Of a stretch of DNA of 48,458 nucleotides, positions 3,935-29,308 are shown one piece after another. Source of the DNA: Candidatus Hydrogenedentota bacterium (GTDB taxonomy: Bacteria; Hydrogenedentota; Hydrogenedentia; Hydrogenedentales; SLHB01); contig JACRLJ010000003.1 of assembly GCA_016215105.1 (NCBI GenBank), positions 27,597 through 76,054 of the forward strand, read 5' to 3'. The translations under genes were made by a program, and so were the position numbers. The stretch's first letter is position 1. Every line of letters begins with the position of its first letter. Under the pieces are notes generated by a model. The model had not been told where the DNA came from and searched no databases. It saw only the letters and a program-made list of their open reading frames with translations.

Positions 3935-4030
3935 CTAGAGGCGCGGCCAGAAAGCCTCCTTCTGTCAAAACCCCACAAAAGCGAGCGACGGCGCTAAACA
4001 ACTTACAGATGCTTTCTGGCCGCGCCGCGT
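3935..4030. repeat. 96-bp inverted-repeat element, copy 1
   Basis: The ends 3935-3959 and 4006-4030 contain facing copies of GCGCGGCCAGAAAGC. The whole 96-bp unit recurs at 27184-27279 in the opposite orientation. The 25-nt end segments match exactly between copies, the total length is the same, and the inner 46 nt are about 59 percent identical without gaps. A third, isolated half-arm (CTTTCTGGCCGG) lies at 4042-4053, against the esterase stop codon. No protein is encoded. This looks like a non-autonomous palindromic repeat. Confidence 0.8.
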
Positions 4031-4057
4031 CAAAAAGCTGACTTTCTGGCCGGATTC

Positions 4058-4960
4058 CTAGCTTTTGAGTTGCTTGTCAAACCAATCGGCGAAGATCTTG
4101 ACTTCCTCGCTGATGGTGGGCCAGGGGTGCCCTCCGCCCGGTTTCACGATGAGTTCGGCAGAGCCACCCGCCTTCTGAAGGGCTTCGAGCATAATCTGGG
4201 ACTGCTGCAAGGGGACGCGGTTATCGGCGTCACCGTGAATCAGGAGAAACGGCGGGGGCATGTTCTTTACGCGTACCGCCGGTGAGAGCTCCTCGGCGCG
4301 CGCCTCGGCTTCGACCCTGGTGTGGCTGGCGCGGTCACCGAAGAACAGGTCCTGGAATTTGTCGGCCGGAACCGGCGAGCCGTTCCAATCCAGGAAATCC
4401 GTGGGCGGAAAGAACACCGCTACCGCCTTTACGTGGCTGCTCGACCGGTGCCCTTCGTCCTTGGCGTCTGGATTGCCCGCGTCGGCGGTGACCGCGGCCA
4501 GGCAGGCCAAGTGGCCGCCCGCAGAGGCGCCCGTCAGGCCCAGACGCTCCGGATCGATGTTGTACTCCTTTGCGTGGGCGCGCACAAAGCGAATTCCCGT
4601 CTTGACATTGGCTAGCATTTCGAGGCCGTTGAACTTGGATTTCGACCCCGGCCGAATTGCAAACACAACGTATCCTCGCGAACAGAAGATATCGTAGAAC
4701 TGGGCCCTTTCGTGGTCGCGAATCTTACCGCGATCCGAGTGCCACTCCCCGCTGGCCACATCCACAATGGCGAGACCATTGGGCTTCGCCTTGGGAGTGA
4801 ACACATCCATCAGCAGCCCGACCCCGTCGGTCTCGCCGAAAACGGTGTCCAGCTTCTGCGTATAGGGTTTGGGTTGTTCTGCTGGCTTGGCGTCTTCGGC
4901 CGTGGCCCAGAAGGGCGCAATCATGACTGCGAATATCAGTGGGACGGATTTCATCGGCAT
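4058..4960 (-). CDS. Secreted alpha/beta-hydrolase esterase (BD-FAE/lipase-like)
   Basis: A 300-residue product begins with a signal peptide (MPMKSVPLIF to about residue 21, ATAED). The alpha/beta-hydrolase core shows the nucleophile elbow GASAGG with S146, D246 in HGDADNRVP and H278 in GGGHPW, a complete Ser-Asp-His triad. This family hydrolyses carboxyl esters, often acetyl or feruloyl decorations on polysaccharides; the substrate here is inferred only. The start at 4960 is preceded on the coding strand by GAGGA at good spacing, while the longer frame to 5062 lacks a signal. It is transcribed away from the secretion operon and could be exported by it. Confidence 0.88.
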   Translation of the reverse strand: MPMKSVPLIFAVMIAPFWATAEDAKPAEQPKPYTQKLDTVFGETDGVGLLMDVFTPKAKPNGLAIVDVASGEWHSDRGKIRDHERAQFYDIFCSRGYVVFAIRPGSKSKFNGLEMLANVKTGIRFVRAHAKEYNIDPERLGLTGASAGGHLACLAAVTADAGNPDAKDEGHRSSSHVKAVAVFFPPTDFLDWNGSPVPADKFQDLFFGDRASHTRVEAEARAEELSPAVRVKNMPPPFLLIHGDADNRVPLQQSQIMLEALQKAGGSAELIVKPGGGHPWPTISEEVKIFADWFDKQLKS

Positions 4961-5227
4961 GTTTCGATCCTCGTCATTGAGCACGTGCGGTGGCCGCCGA
5001 GTTCTACCGGTCGAATTGGCGCTTTGAGGGGCGCTTCGACACCAGCGGTCGTACTGAAGCATACGCGATCTCGGGTAAAGGATTCAGGGACTGCCAGGCC
5101 CGGCTAGTTGTGAGACCTAGGGCGAGCAGGTGAAGGTTTCGTCTGGCGCGGGAATCGTCTATAGGGATCGGCACGGGCGAAGTTACCCGCGGCGGCACTT
5201 GTTCGTGTATCTGCGCGAGGCATCGCC

Positions 5228-27005: not shown

Positions 27006-27183
27006 GTCTATCCTCGATTGCTTTCGAATTTAAGCCGCGCGAAAAACAGCTTACGTTGAACGCGTTTGCCATCCTGTACTACAGAAGAATCATAGCAGGA
27101 ATGCAGTGTCTATTTCAGGATGGCGCCCGCGCGGAAAAGCGTCCAATTCGCCGCCGGCACTACAACGCTATTCGCCATAGTAG

Positions 27184-27279
27184 ACGCGGCGCGGCCAGAA
27201 AGCATCTGTGAGTCGTTCAATACCGGCGCTGGCTCATACGGACTCTTGCTGTGCGGAGGCTTTCTGGCCGCGCCTCTAG
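27184..27279. repeat. 96-bp inverted-repeat element, copy 2, overlapping the pncB stop codon
   Basis: Ends 27184-27208 and 27255-27279 are the reverse complements of the two ends of the element at 3935-4030. The total length is the same (96 bp), and the inner 46 nt are about 59 percent identical when one copy is inverted. The TAG stop of pncB (27276-27278 on the minus strand) falls within the last bases of the element. It occupies part of the 270-bp gap between pncB and nadE and may fold into a long hairpin in the transcript. Confidence 0.8.
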
Positions 27280-28736
27280 TCCGGATTCTTCAGCAGCTCT
27301 TCTTTCATCTTCCCGACCTCGGGTGAAAGGTTGACGCGATAGATCTCCGGATTGCGCAGGCGCTTGAACTCCTCGGGAAGCGCCGCCACCTGGTCCAGCG
27401 CGCGCTGACGCACGGCGTGTATGGACGGCGCCTTTCCGACCCGGCGCCCACCCTCAAACACGACCTCCAACAAGTCTTCGGATCGAACCGCGCCGCGCAA
27501 TCGCACTTCGAGATGCGGCTGGGTACGGCTACGTCCCGGGATCACGCCGTCGGCGGGCTGCGGCTCTTCGTGCAGGCCCATCACGTCTCCTATAGGTTGA
27601 TTGGAGGCGTTGTAGTAGCGTGTCAGGCGTTTGTAACCGGGGTCAGTGGCCTTGGTCTCGTTTGACGATATTTTGATTCGCGGCTGCCATTGCCCGTTCT
27701 CGCGCAACGCGACCAGTTTGTACACGCCACTGAGCGCCGGACAGTCGTGACTGGTAATCAGATGGGTGCCCACCCCCCACGAATTGATTTTGGCGCCCTG
27801 CCGCTTCAGGTCCGCGATGAGGTCCTCCTCGAGATCGTTCGAGGCTACGATCAAAGGGTTTTCGAGGCCGGCCTCGGTCATCATGCGGTACGCGATCTTG
27901 CTCAATTTGGCGAGATCGCCTGAATCCAGGCGTATGGCGGGGCGCGCCATAATGCCTTGCGCGCGCATCTCCTTGTACGCGGTGATGGCGTTTGGTACGC
28001 CGCTCGCGATGGTGTCGTACGTATCCACCAACAGCACACAACGCTCCGGATATAGGCGGATGAACGCGCGAAAGGCCTCGAGTTCGCTGTTGAAGCTCAT
28101 TACCCAACTGTGCGCGTGGGTGCCCGCCACCGGTATGCCGTAGAGCTTGCCGGCGAGCACGTTCGACGTGGACGAGCACCCGCCGATGTACGCCGCCCGC
28201 GACCCGCTCAGTCCGCCGTTCGGGCCGTGCGCGCGGCGCAAGCCGAATTCGAGCACCGGTTCGCCATTGGCCGACTGACAAATGCGGGCGGCTTTTGTGG
28301 CGATCAAGGTTTGGTAATTGAGCATGTTGAGTAAGGCGGTTTCGAGCAGTTGCGCCTCGAAAATGGCGCCCTCGACCTGCGCGATTGGCTCGTGCGGAAA
28401 TACTAGCGTTCCCTCTGGAACCGCGCGAACGCGGCACGTCGGCCGGAAGTCACGAAGGAAATCGAAAAACGCCTCGTCGAAAACGCCCAGTGAACGCAGG
28501 TACGCGATGTCGTCCTCTTGGAATTGCAGGTTCTCGAGATAGTCCAGAAAAGGTTCCAATCCGGCCGCGATACCGTACCCGGCGTGCGGGGGAAGGCTGC
28601 GAAAGAAATACTCGAAACAGACTTCCTGCTCGGCGCGCCGTTCTTTGAGGTAGCCCGCCCCCATGGTGAGTTCATAGAAATCGGTTAGCAGCGCAAGGCT
28701 GGCGCCGTGCCGCCAATGCGAAGCGTCTGCGCTCAC
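27276..28736 (-). CDS. pncB: Nicotinate phosphoribosyltransferase
   Basis: The 486-residue product makes nicotinate mononucleotide from nicotinate and PRPP. Recognisable family segments are LLTDFYELTMGAGYL at the N-terminus, FFRSLPPHAGYGIAAGLE, EFGLRRAHGPNGGL, GTHAHSWVMSF and VLLVDTYDT with IRLDSGDL. The start is GTG 28736, whose bases overlap the pncA stop by 4 (GTGA) and which is preceded by GGGAG. The longer frame to 28832 would run deep into pncA. The stop codon lies in a 96-bp repeat, so the element may have set the present C-terminus. Confidence 0.95.
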   Translation of the reverse strand: MSADASHWRHGASLALLTDFYELTMGAGYLKERRAEQEVCFEYFFRSLPPHAGYGIAAGLEPFLDYLENLQFQEDDIAYLRSLGVFDEAFFDFLRDFRPTCRVRAVPEGTLVFPHEPIAQVEGAIFEAQLLETALLNMLNYQTLIATKAARICQSANGEPVLEFGLRRAHGPNGGLSGSRAAYIGGCSSTSNVLAGKLYGIPVAGTHAHSWVMSFNSELEAFRAFIRLYPERCVLLVDTYDTIASGVPNAITAYKEMRAQGIMARPAIRLDSGDLAKLSKIAYRMMTEAGLENPLIVASNDLEEDLIADLKRQGAKINSWGVGTHLITSHDCPALSGVYKLVALRENGQWQPRIKISSNETKATDPGYKRLTRYYNASNQPIGDVMGLHEEPQPADGVIPGRSRTQPHLEVRLRGAVRSEDLLEVVFEGGRRVGKAPSIHAVRQRALDQVAALPEEFKRLRNPEIYRVNLSPEVGKMKEELLKNPD

Positions 28737-29308
28737 GCTAGGTCTCCCGAAGAGCACTTGGTTACGCCGGCCGCGCGCATCTCTTCGACGGCTCGGGCCA
28801 CGGAACCCGCCGGAAGGTCCACACCGCGGCACGCATCCTCGATGAGGATCGCCTCAAAGCCGTGCTTAACGCCGTCGAGCGCCGTTGCCTTCACGCAGTA
28901 GTCGGTCGCCAATCCGCACACAAACGCACGGCGAATGTTCATCTCGCGAAGCGTTGCGGCAAGCTCGGTTCCGTCAAAGCCGCTGTACGCGTCGCGGTCC
29001 CGGTGTTCCGCTTTGCTTACAATTAGCGCGCCGGGAAGGACAGCCAGATCAGGATGGAATGCGGCTCCGGGAGTGTCTCGCACGCAATGGCGCGGCCAGC
29101 TTCCATCCACCCACTGCGGTGTCTCGCTGAAACAGCAATGATCGGCCGGATGCCAATCGCGGGTGTAGACGTGACACTGGAAGCGGGGCGCAAGCCGGTT
29201 TATCACTGGGACGATCTCATTCCCGCCCGTTACGGCCAGCGCGCCGCCGGGACAAAAGTCCACTTGCACGTCTACGACGATTAGCGCGTCGCTGTCTTCT
29301 ATCGTCAT
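28733..29308 (-). CDS. pncA: Nicotinamidase
   Basis: The 191-residue product deamidates nicotinamide to nicotinate. The catalytic triad is D13 (VVDVQVDF), K99 and C138 (GLATDYC). The metal site is D51-x-H53-x3-H57 in DWHPADH. ATG 29308 follows GAGGTGG, which overlaps an in-frame GTG at 29317 and decides between the two. It overlaps pncB by 4 bp, so the two steps are translationally coupled. Confidence 0.96.
   Translation of the reverse strand: MTIEDSDALIVVDVQVDFCPGGALAVTGGNEIVPVINRLAPRFQCHVYTRDWHPADHCCFSETPQWVDGSWPRHCVRDTPGAAFHPDLAVLPGALIVSKAEHRDRDAYSGFDGTELAATLREMNIRRAFVCGLATDYCVKATALDGVKHGFEAILIEDACRGVDLPAGSVARAVEEMRAAGVTKCSSGDLA

Follow-up and report, generated by a model that had tools for sequence, protein, structure and literature searches.

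The window, a stretch of 48,458 nucleotides from the genome of a Candidatus Hydrogenedentota bacterium (the source genome), contains two copies of a short palindromic element, one beside an alpha/beta hydrolase gene and the other beside a nicotinate phosphoribosyltransferase gene. A CTAG at one end of each copy includes the TAG stop codon of the neighboring gene. The C-terminus of the nicotinate phosphoribosyltransferase lies within several residues of the ends of four homologues, as aligned by eye. In a named genome collection the best match to this enzyme had 60% identity and came from a metagenome bin labelled actinobacterium. The copies and their parts are as follows.

3935..4061, plus strand: copy 1, the full 127-bp element from CTAG to CTAG (model match G000:C17:31531-31657, 116 bits)
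3935..3959, plus strand: left terminal repeat and arm 1, CTAG-AGGCG-CGGCCAGAAAG-CCTCC
3960..4010, plus strand: variable interior of nearly constant length
4011..4031, minus strand: arm 2, an internal inverted copy of the arm
4042..4061, minus strand: arm 3 and right terminal repeat, CTAG-GAATC-CGGCCAGAAAG
4058..4061, unstranded: right CTAG of copy 1, with the TAG stop of the minus-strand alpha/beta hydrolase gene at 4058-5062
27154..27279, minus strand: copy 2, a hybrid of 126 bp with family I arms 1 and 2 and a family II right end
27158..27183, plus strand: family II end module CACTACAACGCTATTCGCCATAGTAG
27276..27279, unstranded: left CTAG of copy 2, with the TAG stop of the nicotinate phosphoribosyltransferase gene at 27276-28832

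A preliminary description of this DNA had delimited the pair as units with conserved ends and a diverged interior, at 3935-4030 (plus strand) and 27184-27279 (minus strand). The pair is real, both units being 96 bp long and in opposite orientation; they agree exactly over 25 nt at the left end and 26 nt at the right, and 75 of the 96 positions are equal, the interior having diverged. The 96-bp extent was a trimmed one. When copies were aligned with their flanks, the sequence past the right edge of the unit proved to hold another arm and another CTAG, giving a total of 127 bp, and the unit corresponds to the left three quarters of the element at 3935-4061. Copy 2 likewise extends beyond its 96-bp unit, to about 27154, with a different right end, CACTACAACGCTATTCGCCATAGTAG. 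What had been taken for a lone half-arm at 4042-4053 is the right terminal repeat of copy 1 in the same alignment. The element runs from CTAGAGGCGCGGCCAGAAAGCC to GCGTCAAnAAGCnGACTTTCTGGCCGGATTCCTAG. Within it, CGGCCAGAAAG occupies positions 10-20 from each end, which places the terminal inverted repeats in register as CTAG-n5-CGGCCAGAAAG, and arm 2 is an extra copy of the arm 30 bp inside the right end. The interior of copy 1 was closer, by eye, to subfamily B.

The arm GGCGCGGCCAGAAAGC was detected with at most one mismatch at 129 + 123 places in the 6.68-Mb assembly of the source genome, compared with 1 + 1 for a reversed control. Sixty-one exact arm pairs were present, with the same spacing in 49 of the 50 pairs listed, an abundance far beyond chance. 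A sequence model gave at least 150 matches in the source genome. The many copies anticipated in the preliminary description thus exist, at a length of 127 bp rather than 90-100 bp. After palindrome reverse-strand self-matches and duplicate places in overlapping loci were removed, 157 places were recovered in the examined loci, 119 of them near-full (127 bp in 103, 126 bp in seven, 128 bp in three and other lengths in six). The remaining 38 comprised 13 of 97 bp and 25 truncated, hybrid or solitary ends. The source genome was the sole match among 100 genomes, no match being found in 99 relatives by a model search with strict filters, which scored at most 34 places per relative genome and could have overlooked weak or divergent copies. 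An exact paired-arm pattern had no match in a named genome collection or in viral contigs, where the source genome or very near records are possibly absent. None of the papers matched with the arm sequence had a title concerning a repeat family, and we do not claim that the family is absent from the literature. Among the genomes searched, the family has so far been seen in the source genome alone.

The element was predicted to form a hairpin on both strands (z of -3.1 and -3.4), and no RNA family in Rfam matched the window. Covariation was searched in 102 copies together, with subfamilies pooled. The long hairpin of arms 1 and 2 was nearly invariant, with two double changes in 16 pairs; no helix internal to the interior had four pairs at 80% pairing; and other helices, between the interior and the arms or linker, had at most three double changes, including a local hairpin at arm 2 (74-78/93-97). 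There are no convincing compensatory changes through the interior. These observations bear on a REPIN-like alternative, which we regard as unlikely, in which a Y1 (HUH) transposase of the RAYT/TIRYT type would act on a single-stranded hairpin and insert it beside a tetramer resembling CTAG, with no duplication of the target. The layout of GI REPINs described in PMC3116915 is much like that of the element, in which inverted 16-nt arms start 71 bp apart around a diverged interior of fixed length. The lack of convincing interior compensation argues against a REPIN, as do the same tetramer at both ends and terminal repeats in register, which are DDE-like features.

A tree was built from the 102 copies, each of which was exactly 127 bp long. 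Terminal and internal branches carried 194 and 16 changes in the arms, compared with 370 and 138 in the variable interior (odds ratio 4.5, p = 6e-10). This contrast reads as selection for transposition followed by decay, the arms being kept in lineages that made new copies and lost in single copies. Copies with ruined arms that were missed by the search would weaken the contrast rather than create it. The end tetramers had the most terminal changes per site among the regions compared. On terminal branches the arms still changed at about half the rate of the interior, so that a degree of selection in place, or a bias of the search, may also contribute. The slower terminal change of the arms is also a point in favor of a host-kept intergenic element, for example a terminator, a stabilizer of mRNA 3' ends or a site for a nucleoid protein. 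The closest pair of copies differed at four of 127 positions (3%) and the median divergence between nearest neighbors was 8.7%. Recent movement is therefore not in evidence; with the closest pair 3% apart, the activity is old, and the family has apparently long been inactive.

Among the examined loci, empty paralogous sites were found for five copies (L066, L079, L102, L165, and L222), and in each case the junction was gapless with exactly one end tetramer kept. The empty site of L079 in L126 reads CTAG, the sole CTAG reading among the sites of these five copies; in L132, which is also related to L079, the site is TTCA. The other sites read CTCC (L066), CTGG or CCAG (L102), CCGG or TCGG (L165) and ATGG (L222). 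The relatives that supply the empty site of L102 are family members or remnants, and therefore one element had landed in the CTAG end of another. Two mini-elements were also found in CTAG or TTAG beside family II tips, at L226 and L215. Self-matches of mini-elements and matches inside element sequence (L052, L071, L102 at 1408, and L153) were not counted as empty sites, nor was the majority of the 54 length-97 matches in this search, which arose from ends paired across the palindrome. A diverged repeat, CGCCCTCCCGG...CGGCGCC, occurs at L165, L216, L223, L089, and L208 and provides the empty site for one element copy.

The end tetramer was CTAG at the left of 74 and at the right of 62 of the 119 near-full copies. 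Its commonest variants were CTGG, CCAG, TTAG and CTAA, with CTAC at the right, and GTAG occurred twice at the left and once at the right. Left and right tetramers hardly covaried: left TTAG was never found with right TTAG, and CTAA was paired with CTAA twice. With variants at the two ends nearly independent of each other, faithful duplication of 4 bp is unproven. The final G was less conserved at the right (89 of 119) than at the left (110 of 119), and the right tetramer of L066 is CTAC vs. CTCC in its empty site; for these reasons the last base may be target DNA and the duplication perhaps only TA or CTA. Empty sites that keep one tetramer and end tetramers that do not covary also fit the Y1 mechanism of the REPIN-like alternative.

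The placement of the copies relative to genes was evaluated with a simple codon-usage gene caller, which takes the longest frame. Overlap with called genes was 30 bp or less for 105 of the 119 near-full copies, and 13 of the other 14 overlapped at a called gene start, the start lying inside the element or up to 127 bp beyond it; at L048, for example, the gene start is at the element. The copy at L100 crosses a frame of weak score and lies 38 bp away from the stop of that frame. No well-scored gene had one of the 119 copies in its middle. This distribution makes it extremely improbable that the family belongs with coding palindromic elements such as the Rickettsia RPE, which spread in frame inside genes. 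Such an element would agree with the fixed length and with two frames through the arm-to-arm part that look open by eye; intact copies, however, carry TAG in their end tetramers.

Many copies lie directly after stop codons. The stop codon of a neighboring gene fell within an end tetramer in 23 of the 119 copies (24 ends, as one copy had both), and it was TAG in all cases except one TAA. This contact, the predicted hairpin and the near-constant length all favor a host-kept element of the type named above, which we nevertheless consider very unlikely. The gene ends neighboring the 105 non-overlapping copies included 103 three-prime and 94 five-prime ends, solitary arms and deleted forms were frequent, and the strictly filtered search of 99 relatives gave no match. 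The frequency of stop contact is also close to the share of non-coding CTAGs that lie at stops. In 284,864 bases of source-genome loci, CTAG was found 195 times outside elements vs. 1,033 times expected from base composition, and these 195 were divided among 17 stop codons, 84 other intergenic sites and 94 coding sites. The 23 of 119 copies in contact with a stop are about as predicted from the 17 of 101 non-coding CTAGs at stops, and no further preference is needed. On this reading, contact with stop codons follows from CTAG targeting, since C-TAG stops account for a good share of the non-coding CTAGs. A preference for CTAG alone would explain why many elements touch gene ends, a pattern that is easily mistaken for terminator function. 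CTAG was under-represented about five-fold in the window and the examined loci of the source genome. CCAG and CTGG are common among the end-tetramer variants, and a mismatch-repair bias may account for the rarity of CTAG and for these variants.

Shorter and composite forms accompanied the 127-bp element. The 97-bp form, found at 13 places, has arm 2 fused to arm 3 and, by eye, includes interiors of both subfamilies. Mini-elements of 44-46 bp, in which the two ends are joined, were found 12 times with one more at L224, and solitary right ends were also present. In the source genome, exact left ends numbered 66 and exact right ends 61; the solitary ends beyond the model list that were inspected were 44-46-bp mini-elements or truncated ends. 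For the 97- and 44-bp forms, the best reading is deletion between direct repeats within the element; by our reading of the alignment, the mini-elements are as expected from a deletion between CCAGAAAGCC and TCAAAAAGCC, which are 83 bp apart. The shorter forms may also have moved independently.

In three hybrids (window copy 2, L162/L206, and L174), the end CACTACAACGC of family II is joined to arms 1 and 2 of family I. The right end of each carries CACTACAACGCTATTCGCCATAGTAG or a sequence close to it, which is also found at the tips of the longer family II. The hybrids occupy three unrelated sites and represent both interior subfamilies. If they moved as units, the transposase must pair dissimilar ends at a shared YTAR-type target. 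We regard it as unlikely, on present evidence, that a single enzyme mobilized elements bearing two unrelated end modules and that ends were exchanged between the families. Family II, with ends CACTACAACGCTAT, was observed at L207, L208, L226 (G000:C161), L095, and L215. It is flanked by CTAG at L207 and by CTAA at L208, and at both loci it contains inverted, GTAG-tagged repeats (GTAGACGCGGCGGCTCGCCGCGTC).

The preliminary description had suggested that a transposase encoded elsewhere moves the hairpins. Thirteen Y1_Tnp and five DDE_Tnp_1 loci were found in the source genome, none of which bears these ends, and DDE_3, DDE_Tnp_1_2 and DUF772 had no matches there; among these five transposase families no matching autonomous element was found. 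A scan of 216 loci for facing ends 0.3-6 kb apart with at most three mismatches gave five pairs of solitary ends. Two pairs at L223 share a chance-like end, one at L105 consists of a full element beside a mini-element, and two at L128 enclose a gene for a pyruvoyl-dependent arginine decarboxylase. No transposase was enclosed by facing solitary ends, the gene scan covering L105 and L128. We treat the lack of an autonomous insertion sequence with shared ends among the families searched as not fatal for an old MITE family.

The 13 Y1_Tnp genes would supply the enzyme needed by the REPIN-like alternative. The element, however, bears no GTAG tag, and none of the 13 loci is flanked by its arms. One solitary arm fragment lies about 1.1 kb from the gene at L031. 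Three Y1 loci (L031, L033, and L040) carry other repeats of their own, two of the three being of GTAG type; the scan of Y1 loci for their own inverted repeats covered those outside L036-L043. GTAG-type repeats are separate from the element in this genome. Repeats of this type beside the genes are described for REP-associated and TIR tyrosine transposases (PMC3733652). The Y1 gene at L031 (G000:C137:74354-77148) lies between long inverted repeats, GACGCCAGGAGAGTAGCCGGGGGTGAC, which form a perfect inverted pair, and that at L033 (G000:C49:70367-72727) is flanked by the long inverted repeats GTAGCCCACGGCGTGAGCCGTGGG. At L040/L227 (G000:C107:1-8000), two Y1 genes are about 2 kb apart with the repeat GTAGACGCGGCGGCCCGCCGCGTC near one of them; this is likely a REP/RAYT system distinct from the 127-bp element.

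The preliminary proposal of a mobilized hairpin family, a MITE or a REP, therefore stands in its first part. At least 150 dispersed and mostly intergenic copies, terminal inverted repeats, empty sites and the signature of the copy tree all point to a MITE, and no role for a REP transposase was supported. We consider it probable that the family was moved in trans by a transposase that is lost or unfound, probably of the DDE type. The CGGCCAGAAAG arm would be the putative binding site of this enzyme, which may have been lost from the source genome or may not have been recognized in it. IS5-like targeting of YTAR/CTAG is our best guess for the mover, as IS5 is described as duplicating Py-T-A-Pu, most often CTAG (PMC5493358).

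The element is of an ordinary kind, a MITE-type family that is apparently old and inactive. It offers a clean case of such a family that filled one genome and then went quiet. The contrast between internal and terminal changes on a tree of copies is a simple test that helps to tell whether a bacterial repeat family is selected for transposition or for host function.

Several known systems share features with the element. A YTAR target, most often CTAG, is described for the IS5 group (PMC5493358, PMC10359306) and would be shared by the element, but no transposase of the group with these ends was found among the families searched and the faithful 4-bp duplication is unproven. REPINs have two 16-nt inverted arms with starts 71 bp from each other, a diverged spacer of fixed length and solitary arms as decay products in the description of PMC3116915. 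Unlike them, the 127-bp element has a third arm and CTAG at both ends, its spacer is without convincing compensation, and a GTAG tag and an adjacent RAYT are absent; the sequence CGTC is present at positions 94-97, next to arm 2 and away from the element ends. Striking as it is, the likeness to REPINs breaks down at the GTAG tag, the association with a RAYT and compensatory pairing. ERIC is an imperfect palindrome. The enterobacterial ERIC (IRU, RU-1) is described as 127 bp long, mainly intergenic and with TA at its termini (PMC2229807), as is the element studied here; its terminal repeat is 7 bp in that description vs. about 20 bp here, the two being set apart by description only, and the match in length looks coincidental. 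Different ends, a third internal arm, a CTAG-like target and the lack of a cognate insertion sequence among those searched distinguish the family from RUP, Correia/NEMIS and QMITE2, and none of the 99 relatives searched showed it. IS630-Spn1 is the insertion sequence to which RUP is attributed. With these three systems, as described in PMC2229807 and PMC10969869, the family shares a size of about 100-200 bp, terminal inverted repeats, many copies that are mainly intergenic, and truncated derivatives.
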